IMG/VR virus record: IMGVR_UViG_3300036828_000984
Location: 1 to 45,107 of that record
DNA length: 45,107 bases
Source of the DNA: a virus
Strand: one strand, 5' to 3'
Translations under genes and position numbers: made by a program
Notes under the pieces: model-generated
What the model saw: only the letters and a program-made list of their open reading frames with translations
Databases searched by the model: none
Told to the model about the DNA's origin: nothing
In this document: piece by piece, positions 1-7,610 of the stretch
Layout: each line of letters opens with the position of its first letter
Numbering within the stretch: the first letter of the stretch is position 1

Positions 1-119
1 CGATTGTCAGAGAAAATCGAGTGACAGGTCGAACGTCCGATGTCGAGCGCTCGCGCGCGGGCATCAAGCGAGGTGGCGCCAACAGCGTCGAGCGCCGCCC
101 GAATCTCAGGAATGGTCAT
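1..119 (-). CDS. HTH-like protein, N-terminal fragment cut by window edge
   Basis: The visible 39 residues begin MTIPEIRAALDAVGATSLDA and continue RARALDIGRSTCHSIFSDN. The second part has the A-x-x-L-x-I-G-R-S-T pattern of a helix-turn-helix recognition segment, so a small DNA-binding regulator is likely. The start at 119 is fixed by the leader shared by this operon: GGAG eight bases upstream and a CTTGCAA-loop hairpin before it. It is the last gene of the minus-strand cluster seen here. The C-terminus lies outside the window, so the family cannot be named. Confidence 0.6.
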   Translation of the reverse strand, partial: MTIPEIRAALDAVGATSLDARARALDIGRSTCHSIFSDN

Positions 120-185
120 TGGGTGACTCCATTTTGGTAACGCGTGTTGCAAGCACGCGATCGGTAACATAGGCCACCGGGGCCT
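120..185 (-). promoter_or_regulatory. Triple-hairpin leader, copy 1
   Basis: Read on the minus strand: a hairpin AGGCC/GGCCT (171-185), then CGCGTG-CTTGCAA-CACGCG (141-159), then AAAATGGAGTCACCC and ATG. GGAG is the Shine-Dalgarno sequence. The ATG inside ATGGAGTCA is out of frame here and opens an eight-codon reading frame (MESPNDHS) that overlaps the true start. Confidence 0.7.
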
Positions 186-237
186 AGGGCGCAAGGGATT
201 TTTCGGCGGTGAAGAAAATCGCGCCAGCTTCCTCATA

Positions 238-318
238 TCAATCGAGAACTCTGCCGTATTGGGCGGAGTTGCGCGCAGAGCGTTTCATGCCTAGAATAAT
301 ACCCTGCTGCGACGCCAT
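238..318 (-). CDS. Possible 26-aa small protein
   Basis: The reading frame starts at ATG 318 and gives MASQQGIILGMKRSARNSAQ followed by YGRVLD. It is preceded by a degenerate copy of the operon leader (an AGCC/GGCT hairpin with TTTGCAA in its loop at 346-361, then AATGGAGTC) and lies just downstream of a strong minus-strand terminator. The GGAG to ATG spacing of 13 is long. No family is recognised; the leader is the main reason to list it. Confidence 0.25.
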   Translation of the reverse strand: MASQQGIILGMKRSARNSAQYGRVLD

Positions 319-361
319 GGCTGGCGTTCGACTCCATTCTCGCCAAGCCTTGCAAATGGCT
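319..361 (-). promoter_or_regulatory. Degenerate leader, copy 8
   Basis: On the minus strand a four-base stem AGCC/GGCT encloses ATTTGCAA, followed by TGGCGAG and AATGGAGTC. This matches the last hairpin and Shine-Dalgarno block of the other seven leaders, but the stem is short and the GGAG to ATG distance differs. Confidence 0.35.
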
Positions 362-370
362 GCCGCGCAT

Positions 371-409
371 AAAAAAACCCCGGCGCAGGAAGTTAATCCT
401 GAGCCGGGG
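371..409 (-). terminator. Rho-independent terminator (minus strand)
   Basis: On the minus strand CCCCGGC pairs with GCCGGGG, with an inner CAGGA/TCCTG stem, and is followed directly by seven T. This is a textbook intrinsic terminator. It ends transcripts arriving from the two-hairpin block at 448-544. Confidence 0.85.
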
Positions 410-436
410 TTTCATCGTCGCGTGTTTTAGCTGCCG

Positions 437-495
437 AAAAAGGGTGCGAGCCCGGCAGCCGGCCGCTGGGTGACACAATGCGCTTGGCCGGGCTC
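437..495 (+). repeat. 30-nt-loop hairpin, copy 7a
   Basis: Stem GAGCCCGGC (448-456) pairs perfectly with GCCGGGCTC (487-495). The loop is exactly 30 nt, starts with A, ends with TG and has TGGGTGACA at loop positions 11-19. Read on the minus strand the hairpin is followed, after GCACCC, by five T (437-441), so it may also terminate the minus-strand transcript of the membrane protein gene. Confidence 0.8.
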
Positions 496-499
496 GCGT

Positions 500-544
500 G
501 CGGTCGCAGTCCAATTTGGGTGACACGAGGACGTTGGCGACCGC
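500..544 (+). repeat. 30-nt-loop hairpin, copy 7b
   Basis: Stem GCGGTCGC (500-507) pairs with GCGACCGC (537-544) around a 29-nt loop that starts with A, ends with TG and contains TTGGGTGACA. It is in tandem with copy 7a, four bases apart, with an unrelated stem. The two stems differ in sequence while both are fully paired, which is covariation. Confidence 0.8.
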
Positions 545-639
545 GCGGCCAGCGTAAACCGAAAGCGCGAGGTGGCACAAGCAAGGCCGGCCGGCGGTGG
601 GGCCGCTGGTCGGCAATGCGCTGCTCATCGTTTCTGGGC

Positions 640-1368
640 TCAACGCTTGTCATCAAGAGCCGAGAGATCGGTCCAATAACAAGTGTTACGGACAGGCTTG
701 TAATCTGAAGGCAGCGTTTCCGGTGCAATCATGTACAGAGTGATGGCAACGCAGGCGAGCTTGATCGTACGTGGTCCGTCAATCGTGCGCTCTGCTTTGT
801 CCTCAAACCAGACTTTTTGTCCGACCTCAATCCGCTGACAATGATTATTGGCAAAGTCTACCGCCGATCGAGCGGCTTTCGGTGATGGCCGGGAATCGTA
901 TGCGATCGCCATGTTTGCGAGTTGCACATAATCATCGGCCAGCAAGCACGCTGGTCGACTCTTGATCACTGTGGTCAGAGACCTCTGCGGCACTGTCGCG
1001 GTACCGACCGGGCCAACCGGCGGATGACTCGGCGGCGGTATGTCAGAAGAAGCAGCCGAAGGATGAGTGGGCTCGATTGGCGCGCTAACGTTTGGTGTTG
1101 GCACGCCAGATGTACTGCCGATGACATATACGGCGAAGAAAAAGATGGCGATGAATATCGCCAAGCCTTGCCGTCTCTTTGCTTCGCGTGCAGGTCTCGC
1201 CAGTTCTTCAGCAAGAAGTTTTCTTGCCGCTGAGTCTTGCGGCGCCGTCGCCTCGATCGCTGCAAGCTTGGCGATATCATCAAGTGGATTCTTGCGCGTA
1301 CGAGTAATGCCGGTCACCAGCCAAACGATCAGCACGATGAGCAGCAAACCAAATATGAGACTTAACAT
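640..1368 (-). CDS. Two-membrane-segment protein, unknown
   Basis: 242 aa from the leader-defined ATG at 1368. Residues 2-20 (LSLIFGLLLIVLIVWLVTGI) are a membrane segment or signal anchor. A charged stretch follows, then a second hydrophobic segment (GLAIFIAIFFFAVYVIGS, about residues 72-89), a Pro/Ser-rich linker and a C-terminal domain with Cys residues (PACLL, NNHCQR, KLACVA, NTCYW). With two segments both ends should lie on the same side. The role is unknown; a membrane-associated accessory or lysis-timing function is only a guess. A longer frame reaches 1476 but crosses the leader, so it is rejected. Confidence 0.65.
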   Translation of the reverse strand: MLSLIFGLLLIVLIVWLVTGITRTRKNPLDDIAKLAAIEATAPQDSAARKLLAEELARPAREAKRRQGLAIFIAIFFFAVYVIGSTSGVPTPNVSAPIEPTHPSAASSDIPPPSHPPVGPVGTATVPQRSLTTVIKSRPACLLADDYVQLANMAIAYDSRPSPKAARSAVDFANNHCQRIEVGQKVWFEDKAERTIDGPRTIKLACVAITLYMIAPETLPSDYKPVRNTCYWTDLSALDDKR

Positions 1369-1453
1369 TGTAGTGACTCCATTTTCAGATGACCCGCTGC
1401 AAGCGCGGGGCAGCATGATTGCTGCGGCGAGAGCGGCACCATGTAGGTGCCGC
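1369..1453 (-). promoter_or_regulatory. Triple-hairpin leader, copy 2
   Basis: Minus-strand order: GCGGCACC/GGTGCCGC (1433-1453), GCAGC/GCTGC (1410-1425), CCCGC-GCTTGCA-GCGGG (1393-1409), then AAAATGGAGTCACTACA and ATG. The upstream ATG reads MESLQC and stop, out of frame with the gene. Confidence 0.75.
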
Positions 1454-1472
1454 CCCCGCAACAATCTCAGAT

Positions 1473-1706
1473 TCACACGTCTTCGAGCTTACTGATACGA
1501 TCACTGAGCTTGTCGAAATGAGTGGCGATCCGTGCGATTTGCACGTGCGTCGCACGTAGCTCTGTCAACAATGCTCCCATCGTTCCATCAATACGCATCA
1601 CCATTGCCGAGAAAACAGCCATATCGTCGCGTTGCCTCGCGGCATCATCGATCAATCGGTCGAGTCTTCTGGCGATGAAATTCAGATCGATAGTTTCATC
1701 AGTCAT
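1473..1706 (-). CDS. Small protein, probable coiled coil
   Basis: 77 aa, MTDETIDLNFIARRLDRLID and onward, ending FDKLSDRISKLEDV. Hydrophobic residues recur at heptad spacing through most of its length, so it is probably helical and oligomeric. The start at 1706 comes from the leader (GGAG, then ATG). It lies between the VWA gene and the membrane-protein gene in one transcription unit. No family is recognised. Confidence 0.6.
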   Translation of the reverse strand: MTDETIDLNFIARRLDRLIDDAARQRDDMAVFSAMVMRIDGTMGALLTELRATHVQIARIATHFDKLSDRISKLEDV

Positions 1707-1785
1707 TTGGTGACTCCATTTTTGAGACCCGCCTGCAAGGCAGGGCAGCGATTGCTGCGGCGTGACGGGCTCCCATGTGGAGCCC
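1707..1785 (-). promoter_or_regulatory. Triple-hairpin leader, copy 3
   Basis: Minus-strand order: GGGCTCC/GGAGCCC (1767-1785), GCAGC/GCTGC (1745-1758), CCTGCC-TTGCA-GGCGGG (1728-1744), then AAAATGGAGTCACCAA and ATG. The upstream ATG gives a short out-of-frame MESPND reading frame. Confidence 0.75.
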
Positions 1786-1797
1786 GCCCCGCAACAA

Positions 1798-3357
1798 TCA
1801 GGTAGGCCGGACTTCGATTCCGGGGGCGTTCCACGGCGTGGCGGCGAGGTACCGCTTGACGCTTGCGGGGAAACCGACGCACGCCCAAAGCACCGGGCAT
1901 GCGGGCTCCGGGCCAAGCTCGGCTTCGGGCTCGATTTCAAGATCGGTGAAGCACACGATCAGCGACGCGTCGCTCAATTCCGTTCGCACGTAATCGAACA
2001 ACGGCGCCATGCACGTGCCGCCACCGCCCTTCGGGTCGAACTCGATGTCGTCGCCACAGCGATACTCGTCGATTCGCGTAGGCGCGACGTCGCCGTAGAT
2101 AACGACCAGCTCGTCGATGATCCGCTCATCAAGCGCCGCCTGACATTCGAGCTTGATCGCTTCCAGCGCGCCCGGATACCAAGTCACCGAGCCCGACGTG
2201 TCGATCAGGAAGACGGCCTTATTGATGCCATCGCGCATCGTGCCGGGCAGATAAAGCCCGGACGAAACGAACCGGCGATTAGGCCTATTCCACGTCTCTT
2301 GAGTCGTGGCGCCGTGATCGAACCAAGCGCGCAGAACCTCCCGCCAGTCTTGCGGTGGGTGATCGGCCCGCTCGATTTCGCGGGCCACGTGACCGGGAGC
2401 GGTGCCACGCTTCGCCGCCAACATGGCGGCTTGGCGGAAAACGCGTTCCCACTTGGCGTCTTCGTTCGCGATCTCGCCGAGATCGTCGGAGGCATCGAGC
2501 ACTTCGCCGCAGCCGCCGGGATCTCCGGACGACCGTGGGTCGCGACCTTCGCCTTCGGCTGGCATGCCGCCGGCGCCCGTGCCGTCGCCGCTGCCGTCGC
2601 CTTCGGCCTCGCCCTTGGTCTCGCCAGCGCCTTCGCCGGTGCCTTCGCCCGGCTGGCCATCGTCGCCGCCCGGAGCGTCGCCGCCCTGGTCGCCGTCGCC
2701 TTCCTGTCCGGGAGTGTCGCCACCTTGTTCGCCCTCGCCGTCCTCATCGGATTTTTCTTCGTCACCCGACTGGTCGGCGCCCTCCTGCGCATCGGCGTTT
2801 CCTTCAGCGTCATCGGCATCGTTGCCGTCGTCGCTTTCGTCGTCGTTTTCATCTTCGCTTTCGTCCGGGGACTGCTCAGGAGATGACTCGTCTTCGGCTT
2901 CCTCCTGCCGTTTCCGTGCTTCTTCCGCTTCCTCGATTTCGAGGGTCCGGTAAACGTCTTCCGCGGACATGCCGCGAAACCGCTCATCGAGAAAAGCATC
3001 TTCGGGCAACGTGACGCCCGAATCGACGAGATCGATGTTGATCGCAAAGTCGGTCGCCTTGTTCCAGCGCATCGAGTCACGGCTGCCGCGCCGCGTATGA
3101 TGGCGGCGAACGTCGTGTTCGTTTTCGTGGAGTTGGACGCCGACGGTTTCATCAAACGACATGCCGTTGATGAATTCGGGATTGAAGTAGTGGACCTTGC
3201 CGTTTGTTGCCATCGTCGGAAACTGCCGACTCGGCTTCGGCTCGACCTGTCCAAGTGCGACGCCGTAGAACGTATTTGTGAGAACGATCTCGGCGCGCGC
3301 TCGCGCGATGCGCTCAATCGCTTTCACCGTAGCTTCATCATGGATGAAGTTTTTCAT
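1798..3357 (-). CDS. Metallopeptidase-like / VWA protein (DUF2201 type)
   Basis: 519 aa. The N-terminal part carries VQLHENEHDVRRHH, an HExxH zinc-binding motif at residues 77-81, in the context of the putative metallopeptidase domain of DUF2201 proteins. A very acidic, Glu/Asp/Gly-rich spacer (roughly residues 155-290) follows. The C-terminal domain contains FLIDTSGSV near residue 385, the MIDAS-like D-x-S-x-S of a von Willebrand A fold. Proteins of this type pair with MoxR ATPases as a metal-dependent chaperone or remodelling pair, and a MoxR gene lies two genes upstream. The substrate in this phage is unknown. The leader fixes the start at 3357. Confidence 0.85.
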   Translation of the reverse strand: MKNFIHDEATVKAIERIARARAEIVLTNTFYGVALGQVEPKPSRQFPTMATNGKVHYFNPEFINGMSFDETVGVQLHENEHDVRRHHTRRGSRDSMRWNKATDFAINIDLVDSGVTLPEDAFLDERFRGMSAEDVYRTLEIEEAEEARKRQEEAEDESSPEQSPDESEDENDDESDDGNDADDAEGNADAQEGADQSGDEEKSDEDGEGEQGGDTPGQEGDGDQGGDAPGGDDGQPGEGTGEGAGETKGEAEGDGSGDGTGAGGMPAEGEGRDPRSSGDPGGCGEVLDASDDLGEIANEDAKWERVFRQAAMLAAKRGTAPGHVAREIERADHPPQDWREVLRAWFDHGATTQETWNRPNRRFVSSGLYLPGTMRDGINKAVFLIDTSGSVTWYPGALEAIKLECQAALDERIIDELVVIYGDVAPTRIDEYRCGDDIEFDPKGGGGTCMAPLFDYVRTELSDASLIVCFTDLEIEPEAELGPEPACPVLWACVGFPASVKRYLAATPWNAPGIEVRPT

Positions 3358-3444
3358 TGTTGACTCCATTTCGAGTTGACCGCGCGTTGCAAGCGCGCGG
3401 AGTGCAGTGAACCGCACTACGAGGCGGCGCGCTTAGGCGCCGCC
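3358..3444 (-). promoter_or_regulatory. Triple-hairpin leader, copy 4
   Basis: Minus-strand order: GGCGGCGC/GCGCCGCC (3423-3444), AGTGC/GCACT (3401-3418), CCGCGCG-CTTGCAA-CGCGCGG (3380-3400), then AAATGGAGTCAACA and ATG. Here the upstream ATG is in frame and would add MEST. Confidence 0.8.
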
Positions 3445-3456
3445 CTTAGTGCCGTC

Positions 3457-4347
3457 TTAGCCAAGCAATGCCTCGACATCTTTCAGAATGTCGTCGGCGC
3501 TCTTGGCAACCGATTCGCGAACCGTCTCATGCTCGCGAAGCGTCTTGACGTCTTCGACCGTTAGCTCGCTCCTGATCCGAGCGACAACCTTGTCAAAGTC
3601 CGGGTTTTCGTCGAAGTTGAAATGCGGCAGCATCTCTGCCAATTCGGCGACGTGCTCGACAGTGCTCTTGTTGAAGAAGCACTTTTTGCCGTCGGCCGAC
3701 TTGCCGTAGCTTTTCAACTTCATCGCGAGATGGCCGACCACTTCCTTGATCTGATCGACCGAATGTTGGAAGGCGTCGCGCTTAACCGCGGCCATCGACT
3801 CTTCCACCTCGCGCTTGATGTCTGCGATGGTGTTAGCGTCGAGAACGTCGGCGCGGAAGTCTTCGGCATCGGGGAGAGGCAGCGTCCGCAAGCTCAGCTT
3901 GAATTTTTCGCGGATCTCTGAAGGAGTTGGATAATCCTTCGGATCAAACATGCCGTTGAGCTTGGCTTTGCGCTCGGCGACGTAGGTTGGATATTCGCGG
4001 CAAAACTCATCGACCACGTCCTCAAATTCGCGGGCGATCTTGCGGAACTTGCTGGCGAATTCCTCGTGCAACGCGTTCGGCAGAATGCCAACGCCCTCGC
4101 TCCACGGCTTCGTATAGGTGTGGAGCAGCTCGCGCGCGCTGCCAGTGGCACGGGTGACCGCTTCGAGCCGATGGGCTTCGAGGAGGAGCTTGTTGTAGCG
4201 GCCCGCGTCTTGCGAGGCGCCGTGTTGATCGTTCACCTCTTTGGTGATCTTCCGATCAAGCTTTCGCGCCGTCCAAGCGGAGGTCTTAACCTCGACCAGC
4301 ACCGCCTTGCGGCGAAGCGGAGAGGCAACTTTGTTGGTGTTCGTCAT
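3457..4347 (-). CDS. DUF3150-like protein
   Basis: 296 aa beginning MTNTNKVASPLRRKAVLVEV, then KTSAWTARKLDRKITKEV. The N-terminal pattern (a basic head, V-x-x-W-x-A-R-K-x-D) and the long helical body resemble DUF3150 proteins, which often sit beside MoxR and VWA genes in phages. It probably works with those two neighbours; no catalytic motif is visible. The start at 4347 follows the leader. An in-frame ATG at 4362 lies inside the Shine-Dalgarno block and is less likely. Confidence 0.6.
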   Translation of the reverse strand: MTNTNKVASPLRRKAVLVEVKTSAWTARKLDRKITKEVNDQHGASQDAGRYNKLLLEAHRLEAVTRATGSARELLHTYTKPWSEGVGILPNALHEEFASKFRKIAREFEDVVDEFCREYPTYVAERKAKLNGMFDPKDYPTPSEIREKFKLSLRTLPLPDAEDFRADVLDANTIADIKREVEESMAAVKRDAFQHSVDQIKEVVGHLAMKLKSYGKSADGKKCFFNKSTVEHVAELAEMLPHFNFDENPDFDKVVARIRSELTVEDVKTLREHETVRESVAKSADDILKDVEALLG

Positions 4348-4436
4348 AGTATGTGACTCCATTTTTCAGAACGCCCCTGCAAGGGGGGCGAGTGCTCGGA
4401 TTGAACACTGCAAGGCCGCCCCGGTTTAGAGGCGGC
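4348..4436 (-). promoter_or_regulatory. Triple-hairpin leader, copy 5
   Basis: Minus-strand order: GCCGCC/GGCGGC (4415-4436), AGTGTTC/GAGCACT with one mismatch (4391-4409), CGCCCC-CCTTGCA-GGGGCG (4372-4390), then AAAATGGAGTCACATACT and ATG. The upstream ATG is in frame (MESHT). Confidence 0.75.
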
Positions 4437-4460
4437 AATGCGCTGCTCGTCCATTTGTTG

Positions 4461-4500
4461 AAAAAGGGCGCCCGGCCAAGGGTTGAATTTGGCCGGGCGC
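4461..4500 (-). terminator. Rho-independent terminator with ATTCAACCC loop
   Basis: On the minus strand GCGCCCGGCCAA pairs with TTGGCCGGGCGC (12 bp) and is followed by CC and five T. It ends the MoxR transcript. Its loop, GGGTTGAAT on the plus strand, resembles the conserved loop of the 30-nt-loop hairpins and matches the loop of the terminator at 19932-19964. Confidence 0.85.
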
Positions 4501-4501
4501 A

Positions 4502-4547
4502 GCGGTCGCAATCACCGTATGGTTGACATTGGGCCGTTGGCAACCGC
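4502..4547 (+). repeat. 30-nt-loop hairpin, copy 8
   Basis: Stem GCGGTCGC (4502-4509) pairs with GCAACCGC (4540-4547) with one C/A mismatch, around a loop of exactly 30 nt that starts with A and ends with TG. The core is TGGTTGACA instead of TGGGTGACA, at the same loop position. It lies between the stop codon of the MoxR gene and its terminator, with the loop motif on the plus strand, opposite to the gene. Confidence 0.7.
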
Positions 4548-4553
4548 ATGCCG

Positions 4554-5600
4554 TCAAGCGGCACTCTGAAGGATATACGCCTGATGGTTGACCGTCCAGT
4601 CACCATAAGCGGCCGTGTTCTTCAGCGAGTCGTCGCGCGTCACCGCATCGTGCACAAGTAGCAAGGGGTAGTCGCCGGTGAGGCGATCAGCGTACTTGCA
4701 GATATTCGCGAAGTTGGCGCGCGTTGCCATCCGGGCGAGCCCGGTGCAGGTCGCGTACAGTTGCGAGCGGTCGGTCGGTATCGGCGCATTCGATGGATTT
4801 TTTATGATCGCATCAAGCGAGCCGATCGACTGATAGAGCTGAATGAACCCATTCAACTCGCCGGCAACGTCGGCGCCGATCAGTCCCGCGAAAAGCTTTT
4901 GCCGCAGCGCCACGTTGGCGACGGCGACGTACTTGGAGCATTTCGCAAGCGAGCGGGGAGTCGGAAAGGCATTCTCATCCCCTCGCGGCATCCGGTGCAA
5001 AATCTCTTCGCGCCGGAACCTGACAAACGCGACCAACTCTGGCGCGATGCCGTTCGAATTCGCCCACTTCACCCACGCATCCACGGTCGGCACGCAAGTG
5101 ATATGCGCAAACCGGTTTCGCGCCTGCGTCGGCATGCGCTGGGCGCTGGCGCGGTCGATCATGCGGTTGCCGGCCGCGATGACGCGCCAGCCCGGAGGCA
5201 GGCGATAATCGCCGACGGTGCCGTACAGGATCAAGCCGCCGAGCACCGCCTGCATTTGCGGGGACGCTTGGTTGTACTCATCGCAGAACAGGTACCCTTC
5301 GGGACCGTCACGATCTTCGCGCGGCAGTTCGTCCGGCACCAACCATTTAGTCGTGTTGGTTTTCAGATCGGCGACCGGAATGCCGCGAAGGTCCACTGTG
5401 TCGCGTAGTGCGGCGTGGAATTCGATCATCGGGCGGGTTTTCTTTGCCGCCAATTGCCGACCAAGGTCGGTTTTGCCGATGCCCGGAGCGCCCCACAGAA
5501 AGACGTTGTCGCCCGCGTCGAGGTAAGCTTCGAGCAGTTCGGCCGCTTCGTCCATCGCGACCGGAATCTCGGTCGATGGGACAAGTGCGGTAGTCGTCAT
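4554..5600 (-). CDS. MoxR-family AAA+ ATPase
   Basis: 348 aa. Walker A GAPGIGKT is at residues 37-44, Walker B YLFCDE at about 103-108, and a sensor-1 asparagine lies in AAGNR near residue 150. The body fits the MoxR/CobS group of AAA+ ATPases, which remodel or insert metals into partner proteins together with a VWA protein. The partner is probably the VWA protein encoded two genes downstream. It is cytoplasmic, with no signal or membrane segment. The start at 5600 follows the shared leader. Its transcript ends at the terminator at 4461-4500. Confidence 0.9.
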   Translation of the reverse strand: MTTTALVPSTEIPVAMDEAAELLEAYLDAGDNVFLWGAPGIGKTDLGRQLAAKKTRPMIEFHAALRDTVDLRGIPVADLKTNTTKWLVPDELPREDRDGPEGYLFCDEYNQASPQMQAVLGGLILYGTVGDYRLPPGWRVIAAGNRMIDRASAQRMPTQARNRFAHITCVPTVDAWVKWANSNGIAPELVAFVRFRREEILHRMPRGDENAFPTPRSLAKCSKYVAVANVALRQKLFAGLIGADVAGELNGFIQLYQSIGSLDAIIKNPSNAPIPTDRSQLYATCTGLARMATRANFANICKYADRLTGDYPLLLVHDAVTRDDSLKNTAAYGDWTVNHQAYILQSAA

Positions 5601-5681
5601 TGTTGACTCCATTTTTAGGTGACCGCGTTGCAAGCGCGGCGTGTTCGATGAACACGGAAAGGCCCCGGCCGAAGCCGGGGC
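5601..5681 (-). promoter_or_regulatory. Triple-hairpin leader, copy 6
   Basis: Minus-strand order: GCCCCGGC-TTCG-GCCGGGGC (5662-5681), GTGTTC-ATC-GAACAC (5641-5655), CCGCG-CTTGCAA-CGCGG (5623-5639), then AAAATGGAGTCAACA and ATG. The upstream ATG is in frame (MEST). Confidence 0.8.
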
Positions 5682-5696
5682 AGATCGGTGATCACT

Positions 5697-5987
5697 TTAG
5701 AGGGTTATGCGACCGGCTGCGATCGCTTCTTTCCGAGCTTTCGCGCACATCTCGACCCACCGTTCGGGCGAGACGCCCGGCAGTGTGCCGTTGTTGCCCT
5801 TTCGATTGCTGATCGACGGCGTGTGATATTTCATTCTGTAGTTAGGATCGAATGACGCGCCGTAGGGCTTGCCAATCGCGTTCAAGCCAAGGGTCGGCTT
5901 TGGTGCGGTCGGCTTGCGTGCGCGCGGCTTGGTGACGCGGTAGCCCGCGGCTTTTACCACCGTCAACGCATGTTCAAGATTTGTCAT
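5697..5987 (-). CDS. Unknown basic protein, first gene of minus operon
   Basis: 96 aa, MTNLEHALTVVKAAGYRVTK, then an Arg/Lys/Pro-rich stretch (PRARKPTAPKPT) and a C-terminal part with GVSPERWVEMCAKARKEAIA. It is rich in basic residues and could bind nucleic acid, but no domain is recognised. The C-terminal part looks like a short helical module. The start is set by the leader at 5988-6065. Confidence 0.6.
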   Translation of the reverse strand: MTNLEHALTVVKAAGYRVTKPRARKPTAPKPTLGLNAIGKPYGASFDPNYRMKYHTPSISNRKGNNGTLPGVSPERWVEMCAKARKEAIAAGRITL

Positions 5988-6065
5988 TGGTGACTCCATT
6001 TTTAGAACCCCGTTGCAAGCGGGGCGCGTTCGGCATGAACACGGAAAATCCGGCGCGCGAGCGCC
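5988..6065 (-). promoter_or_regulatory. Triple-hairpin leader, copy 7
   Basis: Minus-strand order: GGCGC-TCGC-GCGCC (6052-6065), GTTC-ATGCC-GAAC (6028-6040), CCCCG-CTTGCAA-CGGGG (6008-6024), then AAAATGGAGTCACCA and ATG. The upstream ATG is in frame (MESP). Confidence 0.8.
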
Positions 6066-6139
6066 AACATTTTCGGTATTCACTTTGCCTCTCCGCCCGG
6101 TGTGCCAAAGATCGTCGCGACGTCGATAAAGGCTTAGGC

Positions 6140-6424
6140 TAAGCCCCTCGCGCCAAAGTCGCGCCCGATCTCACCGGGTGGAGTTTCGTGTTCTGATGAA
6201 CACGGGAGAGCCGGCGCGTTGTCGCGTCGGCAAACCTGTATTCACGTGATTTGAATCCCAAGCGCTGGGGCGCTTGCCTCAAATCGAACTCCCGCAGGAG
6301 CGGCGCGACGGAATTGCTGGGGTCTTTATCTTTCGGGGACCCGCGCCGTGCGTTTGGACCGCATCGGCTTCCGAAGTCGGCTTTGTCTGCCTTGAACCGG
6401 GAGGAACTCGCCTCCCTCACCACC
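6140..6424 (-). other. Stem-loop-rich transcribed region, no convincing gene
   Basis: It lies between the candidate promoter and the first leader. Visible structures are GGGAGG/CCTCCC right at the predicted transcript start (6399-6416), a two-part hairpin with ATTTGA/TCAAAT and CAAGCGC/GCGCTTG arms (6249-6284), GCCG-CGCG arms at 6211-6232 and GTGTTC/GAACAC at 6187-6203. The last two resemble the first two hairpins of the leaders, but no CTTGCAA hairpin follows. A 94-codon frame (6139-6423, GTG start) crosses it but has no recognisable protein character. It could be a structured leader or a small RNA. Confidence 0.4.
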
Positions 6425-6425
6425 T

Positions 6426-6454
6426 AATATAGGCCTGACAGGCCTAGTGTACAA
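6426..6454 (-). promoter_or_regulatory. Candidate sigma70-type promoter with operator in spacer
   Basis: On the minus strand TTGTAC (6449-6454) and TATATT (6426-6431) are 17 bases apart. A second TTGTAC lies directly upstream (6455-6460). A 17-base inverted repeat, TAGGCCT-GAC-AGGCCTA (6430-6446), sits between the two boxes, where a repressor would block the polymerase. It is well placed to drive the whole minus-strand cluster. Confidence 0.55.
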
Positions 6455-6483
6455 GTACAAACCATAAATAAATCCATATGGGA

Positions 6484-6505
6484 AACCCATTGAAATCAAT
6501 GGGTT
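6484..6505. promoter_or_regulatory. Perfect inverted repeat before minor capsid gene
   Basis: AACCCATTGA and TCAATGGGTT are perfect arms separated by two bases, 19 bases upstream of the first plus-strand gene. There is no T-run, so it is more likely an operator or a leader hairpin than a terminator. Confidence 0.5.
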
Positions 6506-6524
6506 ATAGCCGAGAATACCAGCC

Positions 6525-7610
6525 ATGACCCAGCAAATCGCCAGATTGGTACCGGAAACCCAGTCTTTTGCGCGGCCAAATCCAGGGCTTTCGATCGCCC
6601 GCGCGGCCATCGCAACTGGGATGACGCGCATCGATCGCTCGAAGAGTGCCACAGAGCACGCGTTGCAGCTTTGGCCGTTCGATCAAACGGCGGCCATCCT
6701 CACGCGCGCGGCCACGGCGCCGTTGACGCTCTCTGGGACCGGGCTGGTCGAAGTTGCCACCGCCGTGTTGCCGGCGCTTGTGCCGGTTTCGGCCGCAGCG
6801 AAAGTCTTTTCGGCTGGGCTCAGCCTTGCTTGGGACGGTGCGGGAGCGATCATCATTCCCAACGTTGCGCCACCAAATACGGGAGTGAGTGCGTTCGTTG
6901 CCGAAGGGATGCCGAAGCCGGTCGTGATGGGCGCCACCACGGGCGCGCGCCTCGACCCGCACAAAATTGCGCCGATCGCGGTGATCAGCTCGGAGCTGTT
7001 TTCGCAGGCATCGATCGAAACGATAATGCAACGCATGCTCGCGGAGGTCGCCGCGGTCTCGCTCGACACCGCGTTGTTTTCCAACGCGCCCGCCGACGCC
7101 ACGCGGCCGGCCGGTTTGTTGAATGGGATTACGCCGATCACGGCATCTACAAATGCCGATCTGACTGAGGCGATGACCGCAGACATCATTGCGCTCGGCA
7201 GCGCCATCGCGCCGGTCGCCGGCGGCAGCAACATCGTGTTCGTAACAAACATGGGGCAGGCCCTCGCGCTCCAACTGAGAACCTATGGTAGCTTCGGCAC
7301 GTACGGGGAATTTGGGTCTGCCGTTTTTACAAGCTCGGTGATTCCGCCCGGCACCGTGATCGCGATTGCGATCAATGCGCTTGTGAGCATCTTCGGCGTT
7401 CCGTCATTCGAGACATCAACGCAGGCAACGCTGCATCTCGAAGGCACGACGCCGCTGCAAATCGGTACGCCCGGAAGTCCGCCGACCGTGGCGGCGCCGA
7501 CGCAATCGATGTTCCAAAGCGCGAACATCGGCATCAAACTGTATCAGCCGGTAACCTGGGCACTTCGGTCGCCGCAAGCGGTCGCGGTCGTCGCAGGAAC
7601 GAAGTGGTGA
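6525..7610 (+). CDS. Minor capsid protein (HK97-fold paralogue)
   Basis: 361 aa. Its C-terminal two thirds align by eye with the major capsid protein encoded at 12856-14292: both have R-P-x-G-L-L-N-G-x-T-P-x-T-A and Q-A-T-L-H-x-E-x-T-T-P-L-Q-I-G-T-P-G, both have VAAP-x-Q-S, and both end near a W. It therefore has the HK97 capsid fold but lacks a protease domain and most of the N-terminal helix-rich arm. A second capsid paralogue may form vertices or a minor shell position, as gp24 does beside gp23 in T4; that role is inference. The start ATG has only a weak Shine-Dalgarno sequence. Confidence 0.8.
   Translation: MTQQIARLVPETQSFARPNPGLSIARAAIATGMTRIDRSKSATEHALQLWPFDQTAAILTRAATAPLTLSGTGLVEVATAVLPALVPVSAAAKVFSAGLSLAWDGAGAIIIPNVAPPNTGVSAFVAEGMPKPVVMGATTGARLDPHKIAPIAVISSELFSQASIETIMQRMLAEVAAVSLDTALFSNAPADATRPAGLLNGITPITASTNADLTEAMTADIIALGSAIAPVAGGSNIVFVTNMGQALALQLRTYGSFGTYGEFGSAVFTSSVIPPGTVIAIAINALVSIFGVPSFETSTQATLHLEGTTPLQIGTPGSPPTVAAPTQSMFQSANIGIKLYQPVTWALRSPQAVAVVAGTKW

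Follow-up and report, generated by a model that had tools for sequence, protein, structure and literature searches.

Two predicted, mutually exclusive helices in a repeated RNA element between the genes of uncultivated phages

We describe a repeated RNA element in an uncultivated virus, IMG/VR record IMGVR_UViG_3300036828_000984, whose 45,107 bases form the window analysed here. The element spans approximately 95 nucleotides (nt), from the stop codon of one gene to the Shine-Dalgarno (SD) motif of the next, and several copies stand between consecutive genes of a single cluster. Comparison of its copies across related phages indicates that it is very probably an RNA-level structure with two mutually exclusive helices, in which one segment can pair either with sequence at the upstream stop codon or with sequence nearer the downstream gene. 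We propose, with a probability of roughly 40%, that the upstream fold undergoes an RNase III-style cut, after which the shared segment would refold with its downstream partner, leaving each cistron with its own protected mRNA.

Anatomy and covariation of the element

The anatomy given here is based on about 100 segmented leaders, with open reading frame (ORF) calling and leader segmentation carried out using purpose-written scripts. The parts follow in this order: upstream stop codon, segment a, hairpin H1, segments b and c, hairpin H3, a spacer, the SD motif and the start codon. The stop codon usually lies 7-17 nt before H1, and segment a, typically GTGATCACTA, often has the stop TGA inside it. 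H1 comprises about 9 base pairs (bp). Segments b (typically TAGTGTTCAT) and c (typically GAACACT) together make up hairpin H2, which H3 usually directly abuts. The H3 loop is built around TTGCA and is typically 6-9 nt long (111 leaders); a spacer of about 11 nt follows, then GGAGTCAC and the start codon, and the distance from the start of H1 to the SD motif is usually 70-80 nt. A sequence-only reading of the window had taken three hairpins to be the whole element, overlooking segment a at the upstream stop codon, a competitor for one arm of H2.

Relatives were gathered by protein and pattern searches, and a covariance model of H2, H3 and the SD motif was built from 12 leaders. Among 133 distinct sequences aligned to this model, a fit that itself favours structure, the H2 and H3 pairs are formed in 95.2% of cells (69.4% in shuffles), each of the 12 base pairs has changed on both sides, and covariation scores 0.514, compared with 0.137±0.008 in shuffles and 0.025-0.056 in slid-partner controls.

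Swap tests on individual leaders are free of that bias. RNA folds of 53 leaders recurrently pair a with b in place of b with c, giving a helix, P1, in which segment a joins the 5′ arm of H2 and encloses H1. Since b is common to both, P1 and H2 exclude each other. The swap tests covered 94 distinct leaders from 28 records, with swaps made within the same phage and with 17 leaders, mis-segmented or of a nested type, excluded by inspection. A leader's own a:b pairing (-8.39 kcal/mol) is stronger than swapped pairings (-7.00±0.22, p=0.0002), as is its own b:c pairing (-7.47 versus -5.67±0.20, p=0.0002), bearing in mind that shared ancestry of leaders can inflate such tests. Control pairings, involving sequence upstream of a, the linker to the SD motif, the SD region (d), a:c and c:d, gave no within-phage signal, and kissing of the H3 loop with d or with the linker was rejected for want of the same signal. 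An ungapped test of a:b over ten positions returned 16.48; swapping partners within a phage gave 13.60±0.38, and shuffling a gave 8.24. Segment b occurs as 42 different 10-mers, and examples of its pairing with a include AACTTTTCTA:TAGAGAAGTT in relative L209 and ATACATCAAA:ATTGATGCAT in L219. That own-leader pairing is better than swapped pairing across so many versions of b shows that both exclusive pairings are kept as the letters change.

The pairings also carry a strand signature. Under symmetric scoring, G·U outnumbers A·C by 37 to 6 in H2 and by 29 to 5 in H1, indicating that these two hairpins act as sense-strand RNA; the ratio in H3, 4 to 8, is uninformative. This bears on the possibility that the hairpins are DNA-level promoters of the N4 type, which a phage RNA polymerase would recognise in single-stranded DNA. 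The resemblance to the N4 early promoters (PMC4496689) lies in short hairpins, rich in GC, that carry a conserved loop and precede each gene, and the strand test does not exclude H3, which has no G·U bias. However, the bias in H1 and H2 runs against such promoters, as does the size of the H3 loop, which is not the 3 nt expected. Among the ORFs called in the near-complete relative G009, none has the size of a giant polymerase, the largest being 949 amino acids (aa). A search for PF00940 gave no match, but neither did its positive control. On the H1 and H2 bias and the loop size we rejected this explanation, which we regard as highly improbable.

Intrinsic termination fares no better. At least five U residues within the 8 nt after H1 occur in just 3 of 98 elements, and terminator-like sites in window positions 1-6600 are not above shuffles (10 versus 8.4±2.4); given the rarity of U-runs after H1, the elements were rejected as intrinsic terminators. 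A simpler role would be mere shielding, in which the gap left untranslated is occupied by GC-rich hairpins that fend off Rho or RNase E, with no switching at all. Some 95 nt of untranslated RNA dense with stable hairpins, and not terminators, would suit such a function, but shielding requires neither covarying alternative helices nor phage-specific loops, and we consider it improbable.

Cut and refold, or gating by the ribosome

Together, P1 and H1 measure 18.7±1.6 bp with a median internal loop of 2x2. Like RNase III sites of the T7 R1.1 type, they thus form a hairpin between genes that spans about two turns of helix and is interrupted by an internal loop. We propose that a double-strand endonuclease, for instance the host's RNase III, would act on this helix of about 19 bp and cut its 3′ strand between H1 and b, much as the intergenic sites of T7 are cut. 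The released b would pair anew with c to form H2, and the downstream message would then begin with stacked H2 and H3 just upstream of a strong, open SD motif. Each cistron would in this way be turned into a separate protected mRNA, with the H3 loop and the flank of the SD motif recognised by a trans-acting factor. A cut that frees b to refold with c would explain why b does double service in both helices.

The main alternative, which we think somewhat unlikely, is a switch gated by the ribosome. Here, a ribosome ending the upstream gene covers a, leaving b to pair with c as H2; when no ribosome is present, a pairs with b around H1. The state of the RNA would thus report upstream translation, and expression of the next gene would be coupled to it or insulated from it. 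The stop codon does lie inside or just before a, and masking a moves the predicted probability of H2 from 0.44 to 0.86, in folding programs that disregard ribosomes, proteins and tertiary contacts. There is also precedent: in a synthetic operon, stable structure just after stop codons held back re-initiation (PMC7518266), and the routes proposed for translational coupling include the unfolding of RNA (PMC12548453). Yet predicted accessibility of the SD motif is the same with a masked (0.32 versus 0.32, p=0.76), so simple gating of the SD motif is unsupported, and neither a nor c covaries with the SD region (a:d, c:d). On these two grounds, sequestration of the SD motif by a or c, and with it an SD-sequestering coupler, was rejected. 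Further, the first copy in the window keeps its a:b pairing even though no long ORF ends within 70 nt upstream. A rearrangement that serves processing, and not gating of the SD motif, would be expected to behave in this way, shifting the RNA towards H2 with no change in SD access.

Several points weigh against cutting and refolding. The 2x2 internal loop is smaller than the 4/5-nt internal loop of T7 R1.1, the RNase III site in a hairpin between genes 1.0 and 1.1 (PMC6121014). Ribosome gating accounts no less well for the location of a at the stop codon, and the two helices could be a true two-state switch with no cut. In the window, a:b pairing is weak in the third copy (4353..4446), where the upstream stop codon lies 117 nt before H1. 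Finally, the parts are separable, judging from the window copy ahead of the ORF at 119 and from relatives L220 and L221, all of which lack H2 while H3 and the SD motif are kept.

Phage-specific loops and Shine-Dalgarno motifs

Each phage appears to use its own version of the H3 loop. Loop identity is 0.913 within a phage and 0.780 between phages (z 12), and the motif following the SD sequence is likewise phage-specific (z 8). Specificity is weaker for the arms of H1 and H3 (z 5.4 and 6.5) and lacking for those of H2 (z 1.5). Loop variants among relatives include CTGCAA and CTTGCT, as well as CCGCAAC in L211 and L212, CTCGCA in L247, and CTAGCA in L209, whose copies combine it with GGAGTCT; in L218, AAAGGTCAC recurs in six of six copies. 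The leaders of the MoxR genes of G009 and G013 have lost GGAG and retained GAGTCAC. Loop homogeneity could come from descent alone. Nevertheless, the loops persist where the stems diverge, pointing to selection by a common reader, and the H3 loop and SD flank are probably read by a trans-acting factor.

These patterns speak for a leader that principally binds a regulator, whereby a phage or host protein would bind a motif of the GGAGTCAC type together with the H3 loop, and the other hairpins would only present or space the site. The most phage-specific parts are indeed those such a protein would contact, and GAGTCAC outlives the loss of GGAG. However, no gene family follows the presence of leaders across the large contigs examined, none being universal, and a binding site leaves the covarying, mutually exclusive P1 and H2 unexplained. 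As an account of the entire element we consider it unlikely, although it is compatible with cutting and refolding rather than exclusive of it. The sequence-only reading had offered an RNA-binding regulator, mRNA processing or ribosome recruitment as functions. Its placing of the element at the RNA level is borne out by the excess of G·U in H1 and H2, the covariation and the intercistronic position; of its options, processing or switching is favoured for a, H1 and H2, and a factor that reads the H3 loop is consistent with the data.

More broadly, the element may tentatively be viewed as a modular cis-acting RNA of a new class, in which a cut-and-refold unit or ribosome-gated switch before each gene of a cluster, with a single strand shared by two covarying helices, is joined to a phage-specific hairpin and a co-evolving factor, creating a private post-transcriptional regulon. 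Loop uniformity within phages and difference between them make the search for a reading factor directly testable.

Copies in the window

Eight matches to the pattern TTGCAR-N-AATGGAGTC occur, every one on the window's minus strand, whereas 100 dinucleotide shuffles give an expectation of zero. This confirms the seven leaders and degenerate eighth that had been noticed from the letters alone, and the stems quoted then do pair. Folding of the seven leaders gives z from -1.9 to -4.5 against dinucleotide shuffles. The supposedly invariant loop CTTGCAA holds in four copies, with (C)CTTGCA(G) in the three whose SD motifs begin at 4360, 1717 and 1380, and it varies in relatives. Three consecutive hairpins are likewise a feature of most copies rather than all: the copy ahead of 119 has H1 and H3 with no convincing middle hairpin, and in the copies at 1717 and 1380 the first hairpin is nested in an outer GATTGTTGCGG/CCGCAGCAATC helix.

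The window copies, remnants and ORFs listed below are all on the minus strand, with covariance-model (CM) scores in bits. Copy 1 (5990..6083; CM 75.8, z -2.67) precedes a 96-aa ORF with no family match (5697..5987, starting at 5987), and consists of a (6083-6074), H1 (6067-6050), H2 (6041-6027), H3 (6027-6005, loop CTTGCAA at 6019-6013) and the SD motif GGAGTCAC (5997-5990). Copy 2 (5603..5695; CM 72.5, z -3.43) stands before a MoxR-type AAA ATPase (MoxR/AAA_5, phrog_1297; 4554..5600, ATG at 5600), with a at 5695-5686, H1 at 5681-5662, H2 at 5656-5640, H3 at 5640-5622 (loop CTTGCAA) and SD at 5610-5603. Copy 3 (4353..4446; CM 50.6, z -2.91) leads into a DUF3150-like protein (3457..4347, ATG at 4347) and has H1 at 4436-4415, H2 at 4409-4391, H3 at 4390-4372 (loop (C)CTTGCA) and SD at 4360-4353. 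Copy 4 (3360..3456; CM 42, z -3.63) precedes a DUF2201 metallopeptidase-like and VWA protein (phrog_1314; 1798..3357, ATG at 3357), its parts being a (GACGGCACTA, 3456-3447), H1 (3445-3422), H2 (3418-3401), H3 (3400-3380, loop CTTGCAA) and SD (3367-3360).

Copies 5 and 6 have the nested H1. Copy 5 (1710..1799; CM 27, z -4.52), ahead of a 77-aa ORF (1473..1706, ATG at 1706), carries a (GATTGTTGCGG, 1799-1789), b (CCGCAGCAATC, 1760-1750), a short H2 (1757-1746), H3 (1746-1726) and SD (1717-1710). Copy 6 (1373..1466; CM 41.8, z -4.50), ahead of a 242-aa ORF with no family match (640..1368, ATG at 1368), carries a (GATTGTTGCGG, 1466-1456), b (CCGCAGCAATC, 1427-1417), H2 (1423-1412), H3 (1412-1390) and SD (1380-1373). 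Copy 7 (123..190; CM 32.3, z -1.91) precedes the ORF that starts at 119 and runs off the contig end; it retains an H1-like TAGGCC/GGCCTA (186-170), H3 (159-141, loop CTTGCAA) and SD (130-123).

The degenerate eighth copy (330..364) reads TTTGCAAGG then GAATGGAGTCG, and its homologue, also degenerate, is kept in relative L030 (8298-8323). A remnant at 6187..6246 has a, H1 and H2 (6205-6187) without H3 or SD, and relative G007 holds an intact copy with similar a-H1-H2 sequence. A probable second remnant (580..632) has an a-like GATGAGCAGCGCATTGCCG and part of H1, with no H2, H3 or SD. Within the minus-strand cluster, at window 4470-4498, 447-496 and 371-412, are hairpins with T-runs that resemble terminators, adjoining copy 3 and the degenerate copy.

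Distribution among relatives and gene context

At a threshold of E<0.01, the covariance model finds about 140 matches over 65 loci of uncultivated phage contigs, several per phage; several of these loci overlap or are near-identical and several contigs are fragments, such that copy counts do not equal independent events. Matches fall on the gene strand wherever checked. Across whole contigs they concentrate in one region, and nearly all sit between consecutive genes of a single cluster around a trio of MoxR ATPase, DUF3150 and VWA genes. Four related DUF3150-carrying phages (G026, G027, G028 and G034) have no covariance-model match, and G025 has one marginal match. G003 has a single terminator-like hairpin and plain AAAGGAGCATCC, with L244-246 and L252 similar. 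The loss of hairpins in relatives keeping only the SD motif had been set beforehand as a refutation of the leader, and the outcome is mixed: at least 20 related records retain the hairpins, while distant ones have a single hairpin with a plain SD motif or no model match. This distribution indicates that the element is a lineage-specific trait. Where a gene lacks the element, as in L240 (G003), L244-L246 and L232-L234, a T-rich stretch follows the single post-stop hairpin, suggesting that H1 may derive from an intergenic terminator.

Outside this group, little resembles the element. Cultured phages include no close DUF3150 relative, with three cyanophage records matching at 31% identity, and DNA searches of cultured phages found nothing close. 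Fourteen pattern matches in bacterial genomes lack stems, look like chance and were set aside. Rfam 15 yields only sub-threshold matches, with none above the gathering threshold in the window or in ten relatives (110 kilobases), so that no known RNA family in Rfam applies; nor did we find such an element described in the open-access literature. The element is a new family for Rfam.

Sheath, baseplate, portal and capsid genes mark the window phage as a tailed myovirus. Its minus-strand cluster comprises the trio and small ORFs. The trio with its RNA elements (window 1798-5600) is common to the homologous regions of G009, G012 and G013, and phages sharing it have structural proteins that are only distantly related (about 27-34%). 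This suggests that the cluster, RNA elements included, moves as a module. DUF3150 relatives of approximately 30% identity also occur on Burkholderiaceae and related plasmids (for example NZ_CP017565.2 and NZ_CP027670.1), some of them conjugative. In G009 (L181-L184), a terminase-like gene is split over both ends of the 64,226-base contig, with positions 1-758 and 63206-64156 matching the same 525-aa G013 protein; G009 therefore looks circularly permuted and near-complete. In the clusters of both G009 and G013, an identical GACTCCATGACAGTGTGACAATACTTAGG lies ahead of the first element (L182 12815-12848 and L198 4480-4512), and near it are a possible short ORF ending directly before a and a GGAGTC on the opposite strand.

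Comparison with known systems

Phage operons usually pack genes stop-to-start. The present group of uncultivated phages spends approximately 95 nt per cluster gene on conserved RNA with two competing folds. If cutting and refolding is true, this would be a compact, repeatable part giving independently stable, translated messages from one transcript. Sharing one segment between two mutually exclusive helices is the pairing logic of attenuators and riboswitches. Unlike these, the element has no terminator, no predicted sequestration of the SD motif and no ligand-type core, and it is repeated before each gene.

Other likenesses are to particular parts of the element. As in ribosome termination structures, a stable RNA structure stands right after the stop codon (PMC7518266); these are a generic stability signal depleted inside operons, whereas the element is a conserved, covarying, multi-helix structure inside a gene cluster. 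The put RNAs of HK022 work through RNA polymerase to suppress termination. They also comprise two adjacent phage stem-loops of about 70 nt (PMC9378689), although the architecture is only partly similar: each of the two put RNAs of HK022 belongs to one early promoter, while the element recurs gene by gene in several copies, can pair in alternative ways and has an SD motif attached. In N4, too, early genes are preceded by short hairpins, rich in GC and with a conserved loop, which serve the virion polymerase as promoters; these function as DNA, with a 3-base loop, and need a giant virion polymerase (PMC4496689), where the element has a sense-RNA bias and larger loops.

T7 R1.1 offers a parallel for the proposed cut, since there, too, a hairpin interrupted by an internal loop separates consecutive genes of a phage (PMC6121014). 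R1.1 is cleaved by RNase III, whereas the element contains only a predicted site, with a smaller internal loop. Beyond R1.1, the element adds a pair of hairpins, H2 and H3, in which the 5′ arm doubles as a strand of the upstream helix, and its H3 loops and SD motifs are near-uniform within each phage.

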